Below are positions 12,731-55,401 of a stretch of 64,000 bases of DNA, one piece after another. The stretch comes from Candidatus Lutacidiplasma silvani (lineage in GTDB: Archaea > Thermoplasmatota > Thermoplasmata > Lutacidiplasmatales > UBA184): NCBI GenBank assembly GCA_022750295.1, contig JAKIVZ010000001.1:197651-261650 (forward strand), written 5' to 3'. Position 1 is the first letter of the stretch, and the number at the start of each line of letters is the position of its first letter. Both the position numbers and the translations under genes were made by a program. Under the pieces are notes generated by a model that was not told the DNA's origin, made no database searches, and was given only the letters and a program-made list of their open reading frames with translations.

Positions 12731-15700
12731 CTACCGCGGCGGGTCGGGGACGATCGTCACGGGTTCTTCTGGGGCCCCGTCGTCGGTCGGCACCGACTCG
12801 TCCTGGGCGGGCGGGCGGCGCCGTCGCAGCAAGAGCCAGGCGAGGAGCGCGGCCACGACGACGGCGATCACGATGCCGATCCCTGCCTCCTCCAAGAGGC
12901 TGAGGCCGGAGGTCCCCGGGCTCGGCGGCGCGGGGCCGAACGACACCGTCAGGTTCGTCGACGTGCCCGCGATCGTCACGGAGGCGGGAACCCCGGACGC
13001 GACCTGGCCGTTCGCCGACGGAACCGAGAGGGGGTAGGTCCCGTTGGCCAGGCCGCCGACGGTCACGACCGCGCCGGTCGAGGCGTACGAAGTACCGCCG
13101 ACGACCGCCGTCCACCCAGCGCCCGCGACCAAGCCGGAGGCGGTGAGCGTGAGGGTGTAGGTCGCGGGGTTCCACCGGACCTTCGAGACCGCGGTCGCGC
13201 CGGCGACGTCGACCGAAACGTTGTACGAATCGGCCCGCCACCCGGGCACGTTCGAGAGGTTGAACGTCGCCGTCCCGTTCGGCGCGGAGAACTCGATCCA
13301 CGCCGTCGTGGAGCGCGTCGTGGTCCCCGCGTACGTGAGCGCCCAGGTGGTTCCGGAGGGGAGGCCGACCTCGGTCACGTTGACCGTGTAGGTGAGGGTC
13401 GTCCAATCGATCGTCGCGCCCGTCGGTCCGTCTTCGACGTCCAGAACGCCCGAATACTGGCTCGCGTGGAATCCGGACACGCTGCCGATCGTGTACTCCG
13501 CGGTGCCGTTGCCGGCCTCGAACACGATCGAGGGGGCCGTGGAGAACGTCGAAGCGCCCCCGTTCAGCGTAGCGGACCACTCAGTGCCGGTCGGGAGGCC
13601 GGACTCGGTGAGCGTGACCGCGAACTGGTTCTGGGTCCAGAAGAGCGGGACGTCCGCGGCGCCGCCGCTGACGTTGACGAGGCTGGAGTACTCGCTCGCG
13701 CGCCATCCCGGGACGTTCCCGACGGAGAAGTCGAACGAGCCGTTCGGTTCGGAGAGGAAGAGCGTCGAGACCGATCCGGCCGACGTCGAGTTCCCGATGG
13801 TCACCGACCAGTTCGTGCCGAGGGGCAGGCCGAGCTCGTTGAACCCGACCGAATACACCGTCCGCGCGAACGAGACGTTGACGGTCCGATTCGCCCCGGA
13901 CACCACGACTCCTCCCGTGTAGGCGTCGGCCCGCCACCCGGGCACGTTCCACACGACCCAGCCGAAGTCTCCATTCGGAACCTCGAACCCGATCCCGGGC
14001 GTGACCGAGAAATTGAGCGAACCGTTGAGCGTGACCGCCCAGTACGTCCCCGGGGCGAGTCCGGTCTCGTTGAACTCGACGAGGTAGCCGTGGGTGAAGT
14101 TGACGACCAGCGACTGCGCGGCCCCGCTCACGGTGACGGTACCGCTCGCCGGCACTGGCGCGAATCCAGGTGCCCCCGCGACCGAGTAGTTGTACGTCCC
14201 GTTCGGAAGCTCGAATCCGGCGCTCCCGTTCGTGGTTCGGTTGGCGGTCCCGTTCACGATGACGGCCCAGGACCGACCGGCGGGCAGGCCCGATGAAGTG
14301 AAGTTCACGGCGTAGAGCGCCGGTGTCCACGTGAGGTCGACGGTGGCGTTCGCCCCAGCGACGAGCAGCGAACCCGCGTAGGACGATCCCCTCCAGCCGG
14401 GAACGTTCGCGATCTGGTACGGGTACGTCCCGTTGGTGACCGCGAACGTAGCGGAAGTTCCGGTGGTCGTGTTGACCGTCCCGTTCAGCGTAACCGACCA
14501 GCTCGTCCCCACAGGGAGTCCGGTTTCGTTGAACGTCGCGGTGAATCCGCGCACGAACTGGATCGTTTGGTTCACGGGGGCGCCCGCCACGGTCACGTTG
14601 CCAGAAACGGGGGCCGCCACGAATCCCTGGAGGGGGCTCACCGAGAATGGGTAGGTCCCGTTCGCTTCCTCGAACGTCAGATTCGAGGCCGTGGTGCTCT
14701 CGAGGACCCCGCCGAGCGTGACCGACCACCGGTGTCCGGCCGGGAGACCGGACGCTGTGAACTCGACCGCGTACTGCGGGGAGGCCGTGAGGAGCGTGAC
14801 CGTCCCGGAGTTGTAGTTCGGGAGGAAGGCGTCGCCGGTGAGCCCATCGGCCGCGCCTCCGAGGGTCGTGATGCCGACCGGGAAGGTGGCCACCACGGTG
14901 TCGTTCGCCAAGCTGACGAGGCTGACGTTCTGCGAGAACAAGTTATCGACGACAACGACGCCGGCGGTCGGGTCGACGACAAGCCCCCTCGGGACCTCGC
15001 CGACTCCCACCGAGGCCACGATCGAGCTCGCGCTCGCGTTGATGACGAGGAGGGTTCCATTGTTGCCGGGCGTCGTGGCGGCCACGAGGGTGTCTCCGGA
15101 GGTCGGGTCGATCGCGATCGCGTTGGGGAGAGTCCCGGTCGAGAAGATCATGCCCGTTCCCATGGTGTTCGACGAGCCGTTCACGACGAAGAGGGCCCCC
15201 TGTCCCATCGCGACGACCGACCCGATGACCTGGACGTCCTGCGAGACCGGGTCGTAGGTGATCTCAGTCGCGCCGTAGGAGCCGAACCCGAGGTTCGCAA
15301 CGACGAGGTCGGTGTGGGCGTCGATGACGCTCACGTTGCCGTTCAGGTGGTTGATCACGAAGACCTCGGCAGAAGCCGGGTCGAGCACCATCTGGTTCGG
15401 GTAGACGCCGACGGCGATCGTGGCGACGACCGCGCCGGTGGTCCCGTTCAGTACGGAGACGTTCTGGCTCAGCGTGTTGATCACGAAGACCCGGTCGTTG
15501 GATGGGTCCCACAGAACTCCCTCGGGGGAGTTCCCGACGGCCGTCGTCGAAACGACGGTGTTCGTCGACAGGTTGAGGCCGCTGACACTGTCGTCCTCCG
15601 AATTGTCGACGTAGAGCCGGTTGTCGTGGGAGTCCAGCGCCATCACCGTCGCGCCCGCCCCGGTCGGAACCGTTGTGACCTCGCGAGAGGTGCTGGAGTT

Positions 15701-17068
15701 GTAGACCACGACGGCCCCCGCGTCGGACTCGCTGACGTAGACGAGTCCCGTGGCGTTGTCGATTACCACGTCGGTCGGCTCGGCGCCGACCGATACGTTC
15801 CCGAGAAGCCCTGTGCCGTTCGCGACCTGGACCATGTCGCCGCCCAGGCTGGGCACGAAGAACGTTCCCGTCGCGGAGTCGAGGGTGAGGTCGATGGAGT
15901 TCCGGGCGACGGTCACGTTGCCGGAGACTTGGTTCAGAACCGGGGAGATCAGAGCGACCTGGCCGGGGGTGTACACGAGGGCGAGCACGAACCCGAGGGG
16001 CCCGTCCCAGGTCAGGGCCCCGGGGGCGGGACTGACCGAGAGGTTCGTGACCCACGAATCGTTGGTCGTGGAAAGGACCCCGACCCCGCCGGAGAGGCCG
16101 TTCGAGACGAACAGCTCGTCCACGGTGGGGACGAAGGCGAGCGAGGCGACGTTGTAGGCGCCGGTGTCGTACAGGGTGGACGTCACGACCGACTCGTTCG
16201 TGCCGTTGATGACCGTCAGATTGGCCCCCAGGACGTACACGGTATCCGGGGAGGGCTCGACCACGATCGTGGACGGGCTGGCCCCGACCGGGACCGTCGC
16301 GAGGAGCGAGTCGTTCGAGTCGCTGAGGACGCTGACGTTGCCGGAGCCGTAGTTGGTCACGTACAGGTCGCCGTCCGAGGGATCATCCACGATCGAGTTG
16401 GGGTGCGCACCGACCTCGGTTTCGCCGGTGACCGTGTTCGTGGCGAGGTTGATCATGCTGACGCTGTCGTTCGCCGGGGTCAGGTTCCCGCTCGCGGTCA
16501 CGAACGCGACGATCGCCGGTGTGGGGAGGGCGATGGCGTTCGGAGACCCCCCGACCGGAATGTAGGTCACCACTTGGTTCGAGCTCGTGTTGATCACCGC
16601 AACGCTCGCCGTGGCCTGGCACACCGCGTAGAGCCGGTCAAGGCCGGGCGCGACCGCGAGGGCCACCGGTTGGACGAGCCCCGGGCCGAGGAGGACGTTG
16701 GCGACGAGGGTGCGCGAGGTCCCGTTGATGACGTTCACCGTGCTGTTCGAGTACCCCCCCGTTCCGAGAGTGTAGACCATCCCGTTTCCGGAGTCGAACG
16801 CGACGGCGCCCGGGTCGTACCCCTGTACGGGAAGATCGTTGCCCGGGACGACGGTCTGGTTGAGCAGGTTGAGCGTCTGCTCCGAAAACCCCGCCGCGGG
16901 CGGGGGCCCCGCGGGTCGGGGCCCGCCCGCGTGGGTGGCCGACGCGGCGCCTCGGGCGGACGCCGCGGGTTGGGCGGAAACGGGCATCGCCCCCGCGGTG
17001 GAGACGAGGAGAAGTACGGTAAGGATCGCGAGGGGCGTCGCCAGGGAACGTCGAGCTCGAGTCGTCAT
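12731..17068 (-). CDS. Giant secreted surface protein: YVTN-type beta-propeller repeats plus eight C-terminal repeats
   Basis: The 1445-residue protein has a signal peptide (basic start, hydrophobic LAILTVLLLVSTAG, cleavage region near VSAQPA). About 700 residues of YVTN-like propeller repeats follow (motifs such as NPSNDRVFVINTLSQNVSVL and VGSPNAI). Then come eight tandem units of 70-85 residues, each opening with a pattern like FNETGLPVGTSWSVTLNG and often containing NGTYPYSI and VPGWR. It ends in a Pro/Ser linker, one membrane helix (GIVIAVVVAALLAWLLL) and RRRR. It is very rich in N-x-S/T sequons, so probably heavily glycosylated and anchored in the S-layer region. The biological role is unknown; adhesion or cell-wall structure is a guess. 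Confidence 0.85.
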   Translation of the reverse strand: MTTRARRSLATPLAILTVLLLVSTAGAMPVSAQPAASARGAASATHAGGPRPAGPPPAAGFSEQTLNLLNQTVVPGNDLPVQGYDPGAVAFDSGNGMVYTLGTGGYSNSTVNVINGTSRTLVANVLLGPGLVQPVALAVAPGLDRLYAVCQATASVAVINTSSNQVVTYIPVGGSPNAIALPTPAIVAFVTASGNLTPANDSVSMINLATNTVTGETEVGAHPNSIVDDPSDGDLYVTNYGSGNVSVLSDSNDSLLATVPVGASPSTIVVEPSPDTVYVLGANLTVINGTNESVVTSTLYDTGAYNVASLAFVPTVDELFVSNGLSGGVGVLSTTNDSWVTNLSVSPAPGALTWDGPLGFVLALVYTPGQVALISPVLNQVSGNVTVARNSIDLTLDSATGTFFVPSLGGDMVQVANGTGLLGNVSVGAEPTDVVIDNATGLVYVSESDAGAVVVYNSSTSREVTTVPTGAGATVMALDSHDNRLYVDNSEDDSVSGLNLSTNTVVSTTAVGNSPEGVLWDPSNDRVFVINTLSQNVSVLNGTTGAVVATIAVGVYPNQMVLDPASAEVFVINHLNGNVSVIDAHTDLVVANLGFGSYGATEITYDPVSQDVQVIGSVVAMGQGALFVVNGSSNTMGTGMIFSTGTLPNAIAIDPTSGDTLVAATTPGNNGTLLVINASASSIVASVGVGEVPRGLVVDPTAGVVVVDNLFSQNVSLVSLANDTVVATFPVGITTLGGAADGLTGDAFLPNYNSGTVTLLTASPQYAVEFTASGLPAGHRWSVTLGGVLESTTASNLTFEEANGTYPFSVSPLQGFVAAPVSGNVTVAGAPVNQTIQFVRGFTATFNETGLPVGTSWSVTLNGTVNTTTGTSATFAVTNGTYPYQIANVPGWRGSSYAGSLLVAGANATVDLTWTPALYAVNFTSSGLPAGRSWAVIVNGTANRTTNGSAGFELPNGTYNYSVAGAPGFAPVPASGTVTVSGAAQSLVVNFTHGYLVEFNETGLAPGTYWAVTLNGSLNFSVTPGIGFEVPNGDFGWVVWNVPGWRADAYTGGVVVSGANRTVNVSFARTVYSVGFNELGLPLGTNWSVTIGNSTSAGSVSTLFLSEPNGSFDFSVGNVPGWRASEYSSLVNVSGGAADVPLFWTQNQFAVTLTESGLPTGTEWSATLNGGASTFSTAPSIVFEAGNGTAEYTIGSVSGFHASQYSGVLDVEDGPTGATIDWTTLTYTVNVTEVGLPSGTTWALTYAGTTTRSTTAWIEFSAPNGTATFNLSNVPGWRADSYNVSVDVAGATAVSKVRWNPATYTLTLTASGLVAGAGWTAVVGGTSYASTGAVVTVGGLANGTYPLSVPSANGQVASGVPASVTIAGTSTNLTVSFGPAPPSPGTSGLSLLEEAGIGIVIAVVVAALLAWLLLRRRRPPAQDESVPTDDGAPEEPVTIVPDPPR

Positions 17069-17452: not shown

Positions 17453-17794
17453 ATGGAGAGGTCCGGAGAAGGAAAGGGCGGGTCGAGCAAGGCCGTCGAG
17501 AACACCTTCGCCAAGGTGTGGGGCGACGACCATGTCGTGGCCTTGATCGCGTTGAAGGTGGAGACGTCGGAAGCCGACACCGTCGCCACCGAGGTCGCGC
17601 GGTTCGAGGAGGTCCAGGACGTGTTCCTCGTCACCGGCGACACCGACATCTTCCTCAAGGTCCGATTCCCCCACTACGACGAGCTGAAGGAGTTCGTCCT
17701 GCACCGACTTCCGGCCGTCAAGGGGATCCGGGAGACGAAGACGCTCCTCGTCGTCACGGCGTACAAGGAGAACGGGGAGACCCGGCGCCCATGA
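17453..17794 (+). CDS. Lrp/AsnC ligand-binding (RAM) domain protein without HTH
   Basis: The 113-residue protein consists of one ferredoxin-like RAM domain: VALIALKVETSEADTVATEV, then FEEVQDVFLVTGDTDIFLKVRF and LPAVKGIRETKTLLVV, the classic Lrp/AsnC C-terminal pattern. There is no helix-turn-helix. Stand-alone RAM proteins bind amino acids and can pair with full-length Lrp regulators, so it is probably a ligand sensor or partner subunit. GGGAG stands 6 nt before the ATG. Its stop overlaps the ATG of the next gene (ATGA). Confidence 0.85.
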   Translation: MERSGEGKGGSSKAVENTFAKVWGDDHVVALIALKVETSEADTVATEVARFEEVQDVFLVTGDTDIFLKVRFPHYDELKEFVLHRLPAVKGIRETKTLLVVTAYKENGETRRP

Positions 17795-18096
17795 GCGCCC
17801 AGGGCGCCTCCCTTCCGGACGCGGCTCCGGCGGTCGCCACCGACCCGAAGAGCCTCGCCCTCGAGGCGACGTTCGCGACGCTCACCGAGCTCGCCGACGA
17901 CGCGTCGGTTCCGCGGAACGTCCGCCGGGGCGCGCAATCGGCGAAGGACGCGCTCGGCAAGCCCCGCGTGGCGCTCGACGTCCGGATCGCGAGCGCGGTG
18001 TACGCGCTCGACGACCTCGCGAACGACCCGAACCTGCCGACGCATGGGCGGACGGCGATCTGGTCGATCATCAGCCAGCTCGAGAGCCTGCAGTGA
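17791..18096 (+). CDS. UPF0147-family protein
   Basis: The 101-residue protein has a short Ala/Pro-rich N-terminus, then the helical UPF0147 core: LTELADDASVPRNVRR, AKDALGKP, DVRIASAVYALDDLANDPNLP and RTAIWSIISQLESL. The family is widespread in archaea and has no established function that I can name. The ATG overlaps the stop of the RAM-domain gene, so the two are coupled. It ends 60 bp before the tRNA-Lys gene. Confidence 0.85.
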   Translation: MSAQGASLPDAAPAVATDPKSLALEATFATLTELADDASVPRNVRRGAQSAKDALGKPRVALDVRIASAVYALDDLANDPNLPTHGRTAIWSIISQLESLQ

Positions 18097-18177
18097 GTTT
18101 TCCGGGGAGAAACGTGAAATACGCCCCCATAGTCGGTTCGCCTCGGAACGGGGGCGGGCCCGTAGCTCAGGTAGGTT

Positions 18178-18207
18178 GGTCGACGGCGGCCGCCGCCGGC
18201 CCTACAG
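18178..18207 (+). other. tRNA-Lys intron 1 (D loop, position about 20a/21)
   Basis: This 30-nt insertion folds into a hairpin. Central helix GTAGG (18171-18175) pairs with CCTAC (18201-18205). The 5' bulge is TTG (18176-18178) and the 3' bulge AGA (18206-18208). The inner stem runs from GTCG to CGGC with one A-C mismatch and continues through CGGC/GCCG. Cutting after the second bulge base on each side, as archaeal splicing endonuclease does, yields a canonical D loop. Confidence 0.8.
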
Positions 18208-18246
18208 AGAGCAACCGGCTTTTAACCGGTTGGTCGGGGGTTCGAA

Positions 18247-18278
18247 CGGCAGGCTCCTCGACGGTGCCTTCCCGAGAC
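18247..18278 (+). other. tRNA-Lys intron 2 (T loop, position about 59/60)
   Basis: In this 32-nt insertion the outer helix is the T stem GGGGG/CCCCC. The central helix is TTCG (18241-18244) with CGAG (18273-18276), including one T-G pair. The bulges are AAC (18245-18247) and ACT (18277-18279). The inner stem contains GG/CC and AGGC/GCCT. Cutting after the second bulge base on each side gives the standard loop TTCGAAT. Confidence 0.8.
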
Positions 18279-18313
18279 TCCCCCCGGGCCCGTTCCGCTC
18301 CCGAGGAAGTTCC

Positions 18314-18676
18314 ATGACCGCCCCCAAGCGCACGAGCGCCGCGAAGTCGAAGGCCAAGGGGAAGGGCAAGGCCGGGGCCGCCGACGCCCCGGTGGTCCCT
18401 CCCCGCCCATTCCAAGCGAACGCCCTCACTCCCCCTCACGAACTTCTTTCGATCGCCGAGACCGACGAGACCCTGAAGACCCTCGGGATCACGATCGACC
18501 GGCTGCCCAAGATCCTCGTCACCGACCCCGGCCTCAAGACCGACCCGAAGTACGTCGCCGCCCGGGACGCCCGCGAGGCGCTCGCCGGCCGGCTCGTCCG
18601 GGTCCGCCGCCCGTCGCAGACCGCCGGTGAGGCGATTGCGTACCGGGTCCTCATCCAATCGAGCTCGGGGGACTAG
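18314..18676 (+). CDS. rpoH: DNA-directed RNA polymerase subunit H (Rpb5 C-terminal domain)
   Basis: This is the jaw subunit of archaeal RNA polymerase. The 120-residue protein ends with the conserved H core: PPHELLS, DRLPKILVTDPGLK, LVRVRRPSQTAGEAIAYRVLI. Archaeal H is usually near 75-85 residues. Here a Lys/Ala-rich extension of about 40 residues (APKRTSAAKSKAKGKGKAG) precedes the core. GAGG lies 7 bp before the ATG. It is first of rpoH-rpoB-rpoA1-rpoA2-L30e-NusA-like and begins just after the tRNA-Lys gene. Confidence 0.95.
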   Translation: MTAPKRTSAAKSKAKGKGKAGAADAPVVPPRPFQANALTPPHELLSIAETDETLKTLGITIDRLPKILVTDPGLKTDPKYVAARDAREALAGRLVRVRRPSQTAGEAIAYRVLIQSSSGD

Positions 18677-18688
18677 GAGTTCCATTCC

Positions 18689-21600
18689 ATGCGAGAGATC
18701 GTCGACAGCTTCTTCCGGGAGCGATCCATCGTCAACCACCACCTGGCCAGCTTCAACGACTTCCTGCCGACGCCGGACAATCCGAACTCTCGGATGCAAC
18801 GGATCGTCGACGAATCCCGGGTCAGCGAGGACACCGGGGAGCGGGGCGTCATCCGGCTCGACGTCCAGAAGACGAAGAGCTCGATCTACGTCCGCGTCGG
18901 CCGCCGCCGCGACCCGCGGACCGGGCAGATCTCCCCGACCGCCGAGCCGACGATCTTCGTCGGGCAGCCGTTCGTCAAGGAGCCCGTGGGCTCGAAGCCG
19001 ACGCTGACCCCGATGGAGGCCCGCCTCCGCAACCTCACGTACCAGGCCCCGATCCATCTGAACGTCACCGTCGTCGAGAACGGGGTCGAGCGGGCCCCGG
19101 AGCAGGTCCACATCGGCGACCTCCCGATCATGGTCAAGAGCCGCCCGTGCAACTTGAACCGCGGGAACATCGAGCGCGACTCCGGCTTCCCGCTCTCCGA
19201 CGAGGAGTACCGGGCGAAGCTCGTCGAGTACGGGGAAGACCCCCTCGACCCAGGCGGGTACGCCATCATCGGCGGCACCGAGCGGGTCATCATCAGCCTC
19301 GAAGACCTCGCGCCGAACCGGATCTTCGCCGAGTTCAACGAGCGGTACGGCACGCCGATCGAGTCCGCGAAGGTGTTCAGCCAGCGCGGCGGCTACCGGT
19401 CGCTCACCGTCGTCGAGAAGAAGAAGGACGGGATCCTCCAGGTCTCGGTCCCGACCGCCTCCGGCCAGATCCCGCTCGTGGTCCTGATGAAGGCCCTCGG
19501 GATGAAGAACGACGAGGAGATCTTCCAGGCCGCCCTCGGCGAACTGCTCCCGATCGACGAGCCGTTCGTCCAGACGATGAAGCACCTCCTCAACGTCAAC
19601 CTCGAGGAGTGCACGTCGAAGAAGCTCTACCCCCCCGAGGGGATCCTCACGACCGAGGACGCCCTCCTCTACCTTGAGAAGAAATTCGCGACGGGCCAGG
19701 CGAAGGAGTACCGCCAGCGGAAGGTCGACGGGATCCTCGACCGGTCGCTCCTCCCCCACCTTGGCGACACGAAGGGCGACCGTCTGAAGAAGGCGCTCTA
19801 CCTCGCGCGGATGGCCCGTACCGTCCTCGAACTCCACCTGAAGGTCCGGGGCGAGGACGACAAGGACCACTACGCGAACAAGCGGCTCAAGCTCGCCGGC
19901 GACCTCATGGAGGACCTGTTCCGGGTCGCGTTCACGCTCCTCCTGAAGGACCTGAAGTACCAGCTCGAGCGGTCGTTCGCCCGGAAGAAGGACCTCCGGA
20001 TCGCGAGCGCGATCCGACCGGACCTCCTCACGCAGCGGCTCGTCCACGCGCTCGCCACGGGCAACTGGGTCGGCGGCCGCGCCGGCGTGAGCCAGGTGCT
20101 CGACCGGACCAGCCACATGTCCACCATCTCCCACCTCCGCCGCGTCACGAGCCCGCTGACGCGCAGCCAGCCCCACTTCGAGGCGCGCGACCTGCACCCG
20201 ACCCAGTGGGGGCGGCTCTGCCCCAACGAGACCCCCGAAGGTCAGAACTGCGGCCTCGTCAAGAACTACGCGCTCTGTGTCGACGTTTCCGAAGGGGCCG
20301 ACGAGGACGAGGTGACCCTCATCCTCCGCGACTTGAACACCCGCGAGATCGGGCCCGAGGTGTTCCAGGAAGGGTCCGGGACGAAGGGGAAGCGGGCCGC
20401 CCGGGTCTACGTGAACGGGAACCTGATCGGACTCCACTCGAACCCGGTCGACCTGATCCGCGAGATCCGCGACCGCCGCCGCTCGGGGACCCTCTCCCCG
20501 ACGCTCGGCGACAAGACGTACGAGATCAACGTCCGCTACGACGAGCAGATGAACGAGGTCATCGTCCACTGCGACCCGGGCCGGCTCCGCCGCCCGCTCA
20601 TCGTCGTCAAGAACGGCGTCCCGAAGGTCACCCGCGCCGACCTGGACGACCTCGCGCGCGGCACCCTCTCCTACACCGACCTGGTCCGCCAGGGGAAGAT
20701 CGAATGGACCGACGCCGAGGAGGAGGAAGACACCCTCATCGCCGTCGAGGCGTACCAGCACCCCGAGCGGTGCCCCAAGTGCGAGCGGGCGCTTTCGCGC
20801 GGGGACGTCCGGTGGCTCTCGGCCGGCGAGAAGGGCGAGGCGGCGCTCGTCCAGTGCGGGCGGTGCGGCCACGAGTTCGACAGCCCGACGCTCCTCACCG
20901 GGCAGCACACCCACCTCGAGATCGACACGAACCTCATGCTCGGCGTCTGCACGGGATTGATCCCGTACCCCGAGCACAACTCGACGCCGCGGAACACGAT
21001 GGGCTCGGCGATGGCCAAGCAGGCGCTCGGCGTCGAGTCGGTGAACTACCGGCGTCGGCCCGACACCCGCAGCCACCTCCTCCACTACCCGCAGGCGCCG
21101 CTGCTCCGCACCCAGACGATGCGGTACGTCCACTTCACCGAGCGACCGGCGGGCCAGAACTTCGTCGTCGCGGTCCTCTCGTACGAGGGGTACAACATGC
21201 AGGACGCGCTCGTCTTCTCGCGCGCCGCGATCGACCGCGGCCTTGGCCGCTCGTCGTTCTTCCGGACGTACCGGGGCGAGGAGCGGAAATATCCGGGCGG
21301 TCAGGAAGACCGGTTCGAGATCCCGCGCCCCGACGTCGCCGGCGCCCGCGTCGACACGGCGTACCGGAACCTCGGCGAGGACGGCCTGATCTTCCCCGAG
21401 ATGGAGGTCGTCGAAGGCGACGTCCTGATCGGGAAGACGAGCCCGCCCAGGTTCCTCGAGGAGAAGACCGACCTCCTCACGCCCCAGAAGCGCCGGGAGA
21501 CGAGCGGTACCGTCCGGTACGGCGAGTCCGGCTGGGTCGACAACGTGATCCTGACCGAGGGGGAGAACATCTCCAAACTCGTCAAGGTCAAGGTCCGCAA

Positions 21601-22363
21601 CCAGCGGGTGCCGGAGCTCGGCGACAAGTTCGCGAGCCGGCACGGCCAGAAGGGGGTCATCGGCCTCATCGTGAACCCCGAGAACATGCCGTACACCCGC
21701 GACGGCATCACTCCGGACCTTCTGATCAACCCGCACGCGATCCCGTCGCGGATGACGGTCGCCCACGTCCTCGAGATGCTCGGGGGCAAGGTCGGCTCGC
21801 TCGAAGGACGGACGATCGACGGCACGGCGTTCTCCGGCGAGCGCGAGGAGGCGCTCCGGGAGAGCCTGAAGGCGCTCGGCCTCCACCCGTCCGGCCGTGA
21901 GACCCTGTACGACGGGATGACCGGTCGCCGCCTCGAGGCGGAGATCTTCGTCGGCGTGATCTACTACCAGAAGCTCCACCACATGGTCGCGGGCAAGATG
22001 CACATGCGCTCGCGCGGCCCCGTCCAGATCCTGACGCGGCAGCCGACCGAGGGTCGGTCCCGCCAGGGCGGTCTAAGGTTCGGTGAGATGGAGCGCGACT
22101 GCCTGATCGGCCACGGCGTCGCGATGGTCATCAAGGACCGTCTCCTCGACGAGTCGGACGGGACGATCCAGTACGTCTGCGGCAACCCGGAGTGCGGCCA
22201 CATCGCGATCCCGGACACGCGCGCCGGCTCGCTGCGGTGCCCGAGCTGCGGGAACACCTCGTCGATCTACCCCGTCGAGATGAGCTATTCGTTCAAGCTC
22301 CTCCTCGAGGAGCTGATCAGCCTCGGCGTGATCATGCGGCTCCAGCTCGAGGAGATGCGGTAG
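18689..22363 (+). CDS. rpoB: DNA-directed RNA polymerase subunit B (unsplit)
   Basis: This is the second-largest, catalytic subunit. The 1224-residue protein is a single chain that carries both halves (B'' and B'), as in Thermoplasma and Crenarchaeota and unlike most methanogens. Visible landmarks are the N-terminal [19 protein letters not shown], the fork region [34 protein letters not shown], a first zinc site (CPKC plus CGRC, about residues 694-730), [32 protein letters not shown], and a C-terminal zinc ribbon (CGNPEC and CPSC). AGGAG precedes the ATG by 10 bp. It starts 12 bp after rpoH. Confidence 0.97.
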
Positions 22364-48656: not shown

Positions 48657-49394
48657 ATGGCGGTCCGCGTCGCGTTCGACGAACTCGACTCGACGCAGAC
48701 CGAGGCGGTGCGCCGGGCCCGGGACGGGGCGGAGCCCGGCACCTACGTCATCGCCCGCCTCCAACGAGCGGGGCACGGCCGTCTCGACCATGCCTGGTCG
48801 TCCCCCCCGGGGGGTCTCTACCTTTCGTGGATCGGGAGGCCGCCGGACGCCGCGCCCGGACTCGTTCCAATGGCCGTCGGAGTCGAGCTCCGAGCCCGGG
48901 TCCTCGAGCATGCCGGGGTTCGGACCGTCCTGAAATGGCCGAACGACCTCCTCGTCCCCGGCGCGTCCGGTCCTCGGAAGCTGGCCGGGATCCTTGTCGA
49001 CCGGGTCGAGATCCCGAATGGCGGCTCGCGAGTCGTGGTCGGGGTCGGCGTCAACGTCTCGATGGAGCGGAGTTCGCTTCCGCTCGATCTCGCCGAGCGC
49101 AGTGCGATCCTCTCGGAACTCTCCGAGTCCCCGCCGACCGTTCCGACCGTCGCGCGGTGGGTCGTCGAATCGATCGAAAGCGCCTTTGATAAGCTGAACG
49201 CGCCCGGAGGTCCCGCGAGCATCGTGGCCGAGTCCCGGCAACACCTGTACGGCGTGGGAGAGCCCGTCCAGATCGACGGACGCCCCGCCGGGATCCTGCG
49301 CGACCTCGCGGACGACGGCGCGGCCGAGGTCGAGAACGAGGGAACCCGCGTGGCGGTCCACGCGGGCGACCTCACGGTCGGGGTGCCGGCATGA
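48657..49394 (+). CDS. birA: Biotin--protein ligase
   Basis: This enzyme attaches biotin to the carrier protein encoded 3 kb downstream. The 245-residue protein has the catalytic domain and no N-terminal helix-turn-helix, so it is unlikely to repress transcription. Motifs are the biotin/AMP loop GHGRLDHAWSSPPGGLYLS (family consensus GRGRxGR), VLKWPNDLLV, KLAGILVDR and VVGVGVNVS, plus a C-terminal SH3-like domain. A TATA-like CTGTTAAGG is 38 bp upstream. The stop overlaps the ATG of the carboxyltransferase gene. Confidence 0.93.
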   Translation: MAVRVAFDELDSTQTEAVRRARDGAEPGTYVIARLQRAGHGRLDHAWSSPPGGLYLSWIGRPPDAAPGLVPMAVGVELRARVLEHAGVRTVLKWPNDLLVPGASGPRKLAGILVDRVEIPNGGSRVVVGVGVNVSMERSSLPLDLAERSAILSELSESPPTVPTVARWVVESIESAFDKLNAPGGPASIVAESRQHLYGVGEPVQIDGRPAGILRDLADDGAAEVENEGTRVAVHAGDLTVGVPA

Positions 49395-53949: not shown

Positions 53950-55401
53950 ATGACCAAGGTCCCGCGTCTCATCGCCCGGGATCCGTTCACCTTCGAGATC
54001 CCGATGGACGAGCAGCCCGGCATGCGGGTGCCGGGGATCCTCTACTCGAGCGCCGCCCTCCTCTCCAGCGTCGACGGCGACCCGTCGCTCCAGCAGCTCG
54101 CGAACGTGGCGACCCTGCCCGGGATCACCCGCGGGGCGTTCGCGATGCCCGACATCCACTTCGGGTACGGGTTCCCGGTCGGCGGCGTCGCCGCGTTCGA
54201 CCTGAACGAAGGGGTCGTCTCCCCGGGCGGGATCGGGTACGACATCAACTGCGGCGTCCGGCTGCTCCGGACCAACCTCACCGTCGACGAGGTCCGACCA
54301 AGGCTCCGCGAGCTCATCGACGCCCTGTACCACGAAGTGCCGACCGGCGTCGGGTCGAAGGGCGGCCTGTCCCTTTCGGGCGGCGAGATCCTCGAAGTCC
54401 TGGCCGGCGGCGCCGAGTGGGCCGTCGCCCACGGCCACGGCCGGTCCGAGGACCTCGTGGTCCAGGAGGAGAACGGCCGGCACAAGGGGGCCGACCCCGG
54501 CCAGGTCAGCGACACGGCCCGGAAGCGGGGGCTCCGCCAGCTCGGGACCCTCGGCTCGGGGAACCACTTCCTCGAGGTCCAGGCGGTCGACGAGGTGTTC
54601 GAGCCGGCGTTCGCCGAGGCGATGGGGCTCCGCCCCGGGCTCGTGACCGTCATGCTCCACACCGGTTCGCGCGGCCTCGGCCACCAGGTCGCGACCGACT
54701 ACATCGGCCGGTTCGACGCCCGCCTCCAGGCCGAGGGGACGGTCCTCGTCGACCGGCAGCTCTCGTGCGCCCCGGTCGCCTCCGAGGACGGCCAGCGGTA
54801 CCTCGGCGCCATGGCCGCGGGCGCGAACTTCGCGTGGGCGAACCGGCAGCTGATCACCGCCGGGGTTCGCCGCGCGTTCCGGACCGTCTTCGGGCGACCG
54901 GACGAGACGATGGACCTCGCCGTCGTCTACGACATCGCGCACAACATCGCGAAGGTCGAGGAGCACCGGGTCGACGGCGGGGAGAAGCCGCTCCTCGTCC
55001 ACCGGAAGGGGGCGACCCGGGCGTTCGCCGCCGGCCGCGAGGAGGTCCCCCCCGCCTACCGGCCGTTCGGCCAGCCGGTGCTGATCCCGGGCGACATGGG
55101 GACCGCGAGCTACGTCCTCGTCGGACTGCCGACCGCGATGGACCGCTCGTTCGGCTCGTCGTGCCACGGGGCGGGGCGGCGGCTGAGCCGCCACGCGGCC
55201 GTCCGGGAATTCCGGTACGACGAGGTGACCCGGTCGCTCTCCACCCGCGGGATCATCGTCCGGGCGGCCTCGCGGGAAGGGGTCACCGAGGAAGCTCCGG
55301 GCGCGTACAAGAACGTCGACGAGGTCGTCAAGGTCGCGGAGGGCGCCGGATTGACCCGACGCGTGGCGCGCCTGGTGCCGCTCGGCGTCGTGAAGGGGTA
55401 A
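53950..55401 (+). CDS. rtcB: RNA-splicing ligase RtcB
   Basis: RtcB joins tRNA halves with 2',3'-cyclic phosphate and 5'-OH ends after intron excision, using Mn and GTP. The 483-residue protein has PDIHFGYGFPVGG, GGIGYDINCGVR, GSGNHFLEVQ, HTGSRGLGHQV, YDIAHNIAKVE (metal/GTP), RKGATRAF and the guanylylated His segment SCHGAGRRLSR. There is no intein. It is directly relevant to the interrupted tRNA-Lys at 18156-18292. Its frame stays open upstream to 53740, but the TATA box fixes the ATG at 53950. Confidence 0.96.
   Translation: MTKVPRLIARDPFTFEIPMDEQPGMRVPGILYSSAALLSSVDGDPSLQQLANVATLPGITRGAFAMPDIHFGYGFPVGGVAAFDLNEGVVSPGGIGYDINCGVRLLRTNLTVDEVRPRLRELIDALYHEVPTGVGSKGGLSLSGGEILEVLAGGAEWAVAHGHGRSEDLVVQEENGRHKGADPGQVSDTARKRGLRQLGTLGSGNHFLEVQAVDEVFEPAFAEAMGLRPGLVTVMLHTGSRGLGHQVATDYIGRFDARLQAEGTVLVDRQLSCAPVASEDGQRYLGAMAAGANFAWANRQLITAGVRRAFRTVFGRPDETMDLAVVYDIAHNIAKVEEHRVDGGEKPLLVHRKGATRAFAAGREEVPPAYRPFGQPVLIPGDMGTASYVLVGLPTAMDRSFGSSCHGAGRRLSRHAAVREFRYDEVTRSLSTRGIIVRAASREGVTEEAPGAYKNVDEVVKVAEGAGLTRRVARLVPLGVVKG

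Follow-up and report, generated by a model that had tools for sequence, protein, structure and literature searches.

The window, the whole stretch of 64,000 nucleotides of Candidatus Lutacidiplasma silvani that was analysed, contains at positions 18156-18292 a tRNA-Lys(UUU) gene with a 30-nt intron in the D loop (20a/21) and a 32-nt intron in the T loop (59/60). This is very probably a functional gene, the only one found for its isoacceptor, with two introns of the bulge-helix-bulge (BHB) type that would be cut by an alpha'2 endonuclease and exons that would be joined by RtcB; its D-loop intron is old and its T-loop intron is one of a set of 14 in the genome. The wider pattern of T-loop introns is more interesting than the single tRNA-Lys gene.

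Anatomy and neighbourhood of the tRNA-Lys(UUU) gene

The gene lies on the forward strand. Exon 1 (18156-18177) comprises the 5' strands of the acceptor and D stems and the D loop up to 20a. Exon 2 (18208-18246) runs from the 3' strand of the D stem through the anticodon arm (anticodon TTT, 18221-18223) and the variable loop to the 5' strand of the T stem and the T loop up to 59. Exon 3 (18279-18292) holds T60, the 3' strands of the T and acceptor stems and a discriminator G, with CCA not encoded. Exons 1 and 2 were delimited by ARAGORN on the spliced form and an alignment of 24 sequences, and intron 1 (18178-18207) and intron 2 (18247-18278) by comparative folding. Removal of both introns yields the 75-nt GGGCCCGTAGCTCAGGTAGGTTAGAGCAACCGGCTTTTAACCGGTTGGTCGGGGGTTCGAATCCCCCCGGGCCCG, a cloverleaf with conserved D and T loops.

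ARAGORN identified this doubly spliced 75-mer as tRNA-Lys(ttt) and recognised no other splice form as tRNA-Lys. The unspliced stretch, and the form with intron 1 alone removed, returned no tRNA; with intron 2 alone removed, plain mode returned nothing and intron mode a spurious 'Cys(aca)'. These calls confirm the exact coordinates given in the original prediction for the gene and its two introns and, together with the comparative folds, its uninterrupted anticodon loop. The prediction had also held that plain tRNA searches would miss the gene, and it is indeed absent from the output of both ARAGORN and Rfam (gathering score) over the window; an RF00005 search of the whole genome matched part of it at E=1.55. 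The sole ARAGORN call in the window, a tRNA-Ser(gga) at 48715-48797 (-), was rejected: it has no proper T loop, is absent from the RF00005 matches, and Ser(GGA) is encoded elsewhere (locus L122).

The gene order is Lrp/AsnC-like gene, UPF0147, tRNA-Lys(UUU), rpoH, rpoB. The UPF0147 gene (17788-18096, +, start coordinate provisional; Pfam PF03685, E=1.6e-27) lies 5' of the tRNA, rpoH (Rpb5 C-terminal domain; 18314-18676, +; PF01191, E=2.8e-14) starts 21 nt past it, and rpoB (Rpb2; 18689-22363, +; Pfam) follows. The first 504 codons of rpoB served as the query for related loci and as tree input. Further upstream, 12731-17068 (-) encodes a protein of 1445 aa that, from its translation read by eye, is predicted to be secreted, to contain repeats resembling a beta-propeller and to end in a membrane anchor.

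The genome assembly comprises 2,096,516 bases in 29 contigs and is 90.94% complete; the GC content of the window is 69%. Membership of the Thermoplasmatota, proposed from the sequence, is borne out by an archaeal 16S gene and by the nearest rpoB loci, 95% identical, which belong to the 'Thermoplasmata archaeon' MAGs SubAcS9-61, AcS5-107 and SubAcS15-120. SubAcS isolate names appear in a Lutacidiplasmatales study (PMC9287336), which applied tRNAscan-SE 2.0.5 in archaeal mode and whose main text does not contain the word 'intron'.

An intact second tRNA-Lys(UUU) gene, combined with an absence of spliced reads, had been named beforehand as an observation that would overturn this reading, and no such gene was found in the assembly. 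The trained model R1 scored intronless orthologues at 60.8-77.1 bits, which served as the yardstick, and its own-genome matches below the gene itself were Asn, Lys(CUU) and other tRNAs, with one 16-bit match set aside. With an assembly 90.9% complete and in 29 contigs, an intact gene or a second endonuclease subunit may have been missed.

Splice-site structure and covariation

The original prediction described both junctions as BHB structures with 3-nt bulges, and this holds in full for the T-loop intron. There, the T stem pairs 5/5, the central helix TTCG:CGAG (18241-18244 with 18273-18276) pairs 4/4, and the bulges AA|C (18245-18247) and AC|T (18277-18279) make a strict BHB; the inner helix has one mismatch in the window sequence. 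In the D arm, the 5' bulge TT|G (18176-18178) is strict and the central helix GTAGG:CCTAC has five base pairs (18171-18175 with 18201-18205), but the 3' site AG|A (18206-18208) lies within a 2x3 internal loop adjoining the D stem. The D-loop intron motif is thus a relaxed form rather than a symmetrical BHB.

Folding of the single sequence gave little support: the z-scores were -1.16 for the T arm (27/200 shuffles fold as well), hardly above shuffles, -2.35 for the D arm (5/200) and -2.36 for the whole (2/200). For comparison, 26 two-intron sequences were available (25 loci and the window), of which 24 were aligned; L042 and L085 (identical to L079 over the gene) were left out. Across the 24 sequences, the paired fraction of cells is 94.1%; shuffles give 83.1% and slid structures no more than 54.9%. 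The covariation score is 0.299, against 0.119 in shuffles (0/500 reach 0.299) and at most 0.110 for slid structures, over which a structure taken from the window sequence itself has an advantage.

Eighteen pairs in this alignment change on both sides, some of them across splice sites. The D-loop central helix is 96.7% paired with both-side changes in three of its five pairs; in pair 16-60, which joins an exon base to an intron base, C-G occurs 12 times, G-C seven times and G-U once, with four sequences unpaired. The T-loop central helix is 100% paired, with two pairs invariant and two changing on one side only. In the T-arm inner helix, 73.6% of cells are paired and all six pairs show both-side changes. 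The acceptor, D- and T-stems pair in 24/24 sequences, with acceptor pair 5-151 compensated (CG 21, UA 3). Related genomes have the same gene 5' of rpoB, with identical splice positions and a variable intron interior. Comparison supports the folds strongly, including the pairs that cross splice sites.

Distribution and age of the tRNA-Lys introns

R1 matched 5' of rpoB in 73 of 80 named loci; L061, cut at the locus end, was dropped, leaving 72 loci and the window. The seven loci lacking a match (L043, L046, L050, L052, L071, L088 and L111) include some that are cut near rpoB. Three of them, L046, L050 and L052, one of which is Candidatus Sysuiplasma superficiale, have no tRNA-Lys within 560 bases before rpoB, unlike most relatives.

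Intron states, set from exon lengths and by eye, were as follows among the 73 loci: no intron in 27, D and T loop in 26, D loop, 37/38 and T loop in nine (L100, L063, L067, L064, L066, L055, L060, L075 and L059), T loop only in four, D loop only in four (including L090, with an ambiguous 5' part), and D loop with 37/38 in three (L089, L094 and L065, by eye). The MAG 'Methanomassiliicoccus sp. UBA345' (L051) is among the carriers of the D and T form. On the rpoB tree, the fewest changes that explain this pattern are two for the D-loop intron, three for the 37/38 intron and seven for the T-loop intron; these counts are blind to gain versus loss, and the tree comes from a quick search with 22 of 69 inner branches open and several long end branches. 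Since two changes suffice, the D-loop intron is old in the group.

Across the class, R1 matched at E<=1e-6 in 398 of 400 genomes, a count that includes intronless genes and other tRNAs. Among named loci carrying both the D- and T-loop introns, 33 of 34 score 102.4-138.3 bits (23 of them training sequences) and L059 scores 90.6; loci with fewer introns reach at most 93.4 bits. By hand count from the R1 table, the best match attains E<=1e-20, approximately the level of genes with both introns, in 60/70 genomes of the genus (the present one included), 23/25 of the rest of the family and 3/3 of the rest of the order. In families f8, f15, f19, f27 and f31 the best E value is never under 1e-15, which is where intronless genes lie. 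The 76 genomes from outside the class in a phylum-wide draw of 97 reach at most 99.1 bits; some matches there are 165-172 nt long, and other multi-intron forms may occur among them. The gene had been presented as a single oddity, unusual for a member of the Thermoplasmatota. This does not hold: two-intron tRNA-Lys genes are widespread in the class, and T-loop introns abound in the family.

T-loop introns across the genome

Weak RF00005 matches of the genome proved to be intron-bearing tRNA genes. R2, a T-arm intron model built from 17 sequences that are mostly introns of this genome, gave 14 strong matches in it (E<=4.2e-6), 11 of them training sequences. They are T-loop introns at 59/60 in Lys(UUU), Asn(GUU), Gly(UCC), Arg(UCU), Arg(UCG), Gln(CUG), Glu(CUC), Ala(GGC), Ser(GCU), Ser(GGA), Ser(CGA), Asp(GUC), Leu(UAG) and His(GUG), and so interrupt 14 of the ~45 tRNA genes found, about a third. 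Five weaker matches remained: two (C5:162592 and C16:189067) were inspected and are not tRNAs, and three (E 3-7) stand outside the intron count. No second copy of Asn(GUU), Asp(GUC) or His(GUG) occurs among the 43 RF00005 matches of the genome. With none found for these three or for Lys(UUU), splicing should be essential.

The other genes comprise 25 without a visible intron, four with anticodon-loop introns (Met, Tyr, Leu(UAA) and, by eye, Trp), the iMet gene, interrupted by an intron in the D loop, and the Arg(GCG) gene, whose D arm has a probable insertion. The assembly thus holds 20 introns, or 22 if the doubtful D-arm insertions in Arg(GCG) and Leu(UAG) are counted, which amounts to ~0.44-0.49 per gene; the tRNAscan-SE 2.0 paper gives an archaeal mean of 0.21 introns per tRNA gene and 0.84 for Thermoproteales (PMC8450103).

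Several of these genes have features of their own (the present genome is G000 in the coordinates). The D-loop intron of the iMet tRNA (L113, G000:C16:121169-121523) starts after ...AGTCAGGA and has the central helix TCAG:CTGA. In tRNA-Arg(GCG) (L121, G000:C7:5589-5988), the ends of the D-arm insertion form a nearly continuous helix with no clear BHB. The tRNA-Leu(UAG) gene (L156, G000:C7:83000-83460, -) combines its T-loop intron with a ~27-nt D-arm insertion whose splice sites are uncertain, and it adjoins tRNA-Gln(CUG), which itself has a T-loop intron. The long anticodon-loop intron of tRNA-Trp (L124, G000:C5:166042-166472) contains ATGA and CTGA stretches, which we take to be box C/D-like. 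The tRNA-Ser(CGA) gene straddles the end of contig C8 and the start of C15, which share sequence, so that the assembly breaks inside the tRNA. The odd intronless gene, at L021 1501-1585 (G000:C3:12100-12184), is a type II tRNA-like gene with a long variable arm and an apparent GAA anticodon. Its full-length match is confined to this genome among 41 of the genus, and it was possibly acquired or is a tRNA-like element.

T-loop introns as a family trait

Among 150 class genomes searched with R2 (E<=1e-3), each of the 18 from the same family has 5-14 T-loop introns and the other 132 have 0-4, with at least one in 80 of these; R2, trained mostly on introns of the present genome, is biased towards close relatives. 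Of the R2 matches in nine further genomes of the family, 106/106 are tRNA T-arms with the T stem paired 5/5. After T-loop splicing, ARAGORN named the isoacceptor in 99 of them; for the remaining seven, which are Leu and Lys genes carrying another insertion, the assignment was made on the anticodon loop, in one case (in G115) by eye. All 106 belong to the same set of 14 isoacceptors as in the present genome.

With the present genome included, the T-loop intron is found in 10/10 genomes for Arg(UCU), Asp, Gln(CUG), Gly(UCC), His and Ser(GCU), and in five to nine of the 10 for the other eight isoacceptors. The fewest among the family genomes fetched is eight (G041). Absence of an R2 match is not proof of absence, since G009, G080 and G115 have a strong R1 match for Lys and no R2 match for it.

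The pooled 120 T-loop introns (14 from the present genome and 106 from the nine others) are 23 to 42 nt long, and their junction is fixed. Identity of the intron core is 0.64 between orthologues, 0.60 between paralogues in one genome and 0.60 between unrelated pairs. Because paralogues are no more alike than unrelated introns, there is no trace of recent copying between tRNAs as in Thermoproteales, and this origin was rejected; older copying is beyond such a comparison.

Covariation of exon base 57 with the intron

In the 120 T-loop introns, positions A58, A59 and U60 are invariant (120/120), and base 57 faces the intron as G-C in 47, G.A in one, A.G in 61, A-U in seven, A.A in three and A.C in one. 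G57 therefore faces C in 47/48 cases and A57 a base other than C in 71/72 (Fisher, 4e-31, a value that overstates independence, the introns being related, and should not be read as a true probability). Within the orthologues of Asn, Gly, Arg(UCU) and Asp, G-C alternates with A.G or A-U. All four central pairs are standard in 50 motifs, three in 69 and two in one. Fewer than four standard pairs are thus present in 70/120 motifs, 66 of them through base 57 facing a non-partner. Relaxed forms accordingly make up over half of the T-loop motifs, mostly with an A.G beside the 5' bulge, an element that the splicing endonuclease would accept.

A single detected alpha'2-type splicing endonuclease and an RtcB ligase

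All PF01974 matches of the genome fall in one ORF on contig C10 (L031 721-1779), read as a two-repeat protein of 353 aa. The triad Y284, H299 and K330, the expected Tyr/His/Lys of the C-terminal repeat, is invariant in 28/28 aligned proteins. The AlphaFold model (pLDDT 95.1) best matches 5x89, the fusion enzyme of Methanopyrus kandleri (TMt 0.92, closest), and 2gjw, the alpha'2 enzyme of A. fulgidus; 2ohe (Thermoplasma) and 4fz2 match less well. Inspection by eye of the protein and its 27 aligned relatives revealed no insertion at the CSL place, such as that of the broad-specificity chimera 3p1y, and with PF01974 confined to one ORF, no separate beta subunit or third unit was found in the genome.

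One polypeptide, two tRNA_int_endo repeats and a Tyr/His/Lys triad constitute the alpha'2 architecture, and the features of (alpha-beta)2 and epsilon-2 enzymes were not seen. The enzyme would therefore be an alpha'2 homodimer, as predicted from its architecture. Across 60 class genomes, PF01974 has at least one match in 56 and more than two in none; six have one detected repeat alone. An RtcB RNA ligase, the expected exon-joining enzyme, is encoded in the window at 54094-55398 (+; PF01139, E=4e-170; G000:C16:251744-253048).

Evaluation of alternative explanations

The preferred account is that transcription of tRNA-Lys(UUU) would yield a precursor containing two introns of the BHB type, that the single detected alpha'2-type endonuclease would cut both pairs of sites, and that RtcB would join the exons. 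The Lys T-loop intron would be one of 14 isoacceptor-specific introns gained or kept in the family, all located between A59 and U60, with an intron 3' end predicted to pair with U54 U55 C56 and to face R57. That the insertions are instead kept in the mature tRNA, as expansion segments of the D and T loops, is very improbable. In the alignment of 24 two-intron sequences, splicing brings back the conserved bases of the D and T loops; in other lineages the number of insertions in this gene ranges from none to three; and T-loop intron length varies over the range given above around a constant junction. A decaying pseudogene, with the intact tRNA-Lys(UUU) in the part missing from an assembly that is 90.9% complete, is just as hard to credit: the three stems pair in every aligned sequence, with a compensated acceptor change, and a match of the two-intron level is also the best R1 match in near-complete genomes (e.g. 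G009, 100% complete, E 8.5e-23). A chance fold was rejected on the doubly spliced ARAGORN call, the covariation and the comparison of loci.

The enzyme leaves more room for alternatives. The original prediction proposed a splicing endonuclease with relaxed specificity and pointed to its subunit type as a check; what was found is a single two-repeat ORF of the alpha'2 type without a CSL or ASL loop. Relaxation receives support from the D-loop motif and from the 70/120 T-loop motifs in which at least one of the four central pairs is non-standard. It need not be assumed for the Lys T-loop intron, which has a canonical BHB, a motif on which archaeal endonucleases reportedly act independently of the mature domain (PMC8707768). 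A specially broadened active site, through a CSL- or ASL-like loop or other changes, would fit these relaxed motifs and the closest solved structure, that of M. kandleri, which is classed as 'constrained broad' (PMC6379350). We nevertheless regard it as unlikely, given that the protein and its 27 relatives show no CSL-place insertion by eye and that the same two-repeat architecture is also found in families of the class where T-loop introns are few or absent. An additional nuclease, or an unseen endonuclease subunit, acting on the relaxed motifs is far less probable still: the genome is incomplete, but PF01974 is confined to a single ORF in it and 0/60 class genomes have more than two domain matches. 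Taken together, the observation behind the original prediction is confirmed and its interpretation partly supported.

Relation to known systems

In published accounts, Euryarchaeota with alpha4 or alpha2 enzymes carry introns in under 10% of their tRNA genes, one per gene and canonically placed (PMC4090602). The alpha4 and alpha2 types are described as cleaving only canonical motifs (PMC4033280), the alpha'2 class is given as narrow (PMC6379350), and a missing loop has been suggested as the cause of this narrowness (PMC12397907). Non-canonical tRNA introns are tied to (alpha-beta)2 or epsilon-2 endonucleases, partly with a CSL/ASL loop (PMC4090602, PMC4033280, PMC6379350, PMC12397907). Archaeal endonucleases are also reported to act on the motif whatever the mature domain, homodimers cutting BHL motifs as well (PMC8707768), and a BHL intron at 37/38 is removed by the A. 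fulgidus enzyme (PMC6379350). The rule of alpha'2 narrowness has thus already been softened in print, and the present family exceeds it in where the introns lie and, for over half of its T-loop motifs, in pairing as well.

A similar intron pattern is known from Thermoproteales and other crenarchaea, where short BHB introns likewise occupy 20/21 in the D loop and 59/60 in the T loop, among other positions (Sugahara 2008, Fujishima 2010, in PMC4090602, PMC4033280), with several introns per tRNA and many affected tRNA genes. Those lineages differ in using an (alpha-beta)2 heterotetramer, with introns at many positions and similar introns across tRNAs, whereas the present family has an alpha'2-type enzyme and one T-loop position in 14 isoacceptors. 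ARMAN-1 and -2, with an epsilon-2 endonuclease, share unusual intron positions and a one-polypeptide enzyme; the protein here, in contrast, is a two-repeat polypeptide of 353 aa in which neither a third unit nor an ASL-like insertion was seen, and 4fz2 is a poorer match. Euryarchaeota with alpha'2 or alpha4 enzymes and canonical 37/38 introns share the enzyme class, and anticodon-loop introns occur here too; they differ in the low proportion of intron-bearing genes and the single canonical position given for them in PMC4090602. The M. kandleri endonuclease 5x89, the best structural match, is listed as (alpha-beta)2 and titled a subunit fusion, whereas the present enzyme is a single alpha'2-type protein.

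Multiple-intron tRNAs have been recorded in Euryarchaeota before, in M. kandleri and M. thermautotrophicus (table in PMC4033280) and, with one or two BHB introns, in the tRNA-Pyl of Ca. Methanohalarchaeum (PMC9071458). These earlier examples are apparently single cases, whereas here a class-wide two- or three-intron tRNA-Lys is joined by a 14-member T-loop set in one family. No matching description of tRNA introns in Thermoplasmatota, Methanomassiliicoccales or Lutacidiplasmatales appeared among the titles and abstract starts of the open-licence papers listed for these groups. Databases of the GtRNAdb type may already contain single cases, as the tRNAscan-SE 2.0 paper mentions curated non-canonical introns from Euryarchaeota, with none of these groups named in its text (PMC8450103).

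Significance

RF00005 and ARAGORN score genes with T-loop introns low or miss them in this genome, so the tRNA sets of such genomes may be understated. Archaea of the alpha'2 type with up to 14 T-loop introns per genome stand as a direct exception to the view of a narrow enzyme presented in reviews. A wider reading, offered tentatively and somewhat short of probable, is that a loop-less alpha'2-type enzyme serves this T-loop-intron-rich family, in which more than half of the motifs are non-standard, mostly A57.G, and that co-evolution of base 57 with the intron has centred on an A.G element tolerated by the enzyme. If this is true, the subunit type of the enzyme would set no limit on the position of tRNA introns. 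Protection of T-arm att sites from integrases is a published idea (Randau and Soll, cited in PMC4090602; PMC3293823); within the same tentative reading, the introns may persist by breaking att sites in the T arm and so possibly protect them from viral or plasmid integrases.
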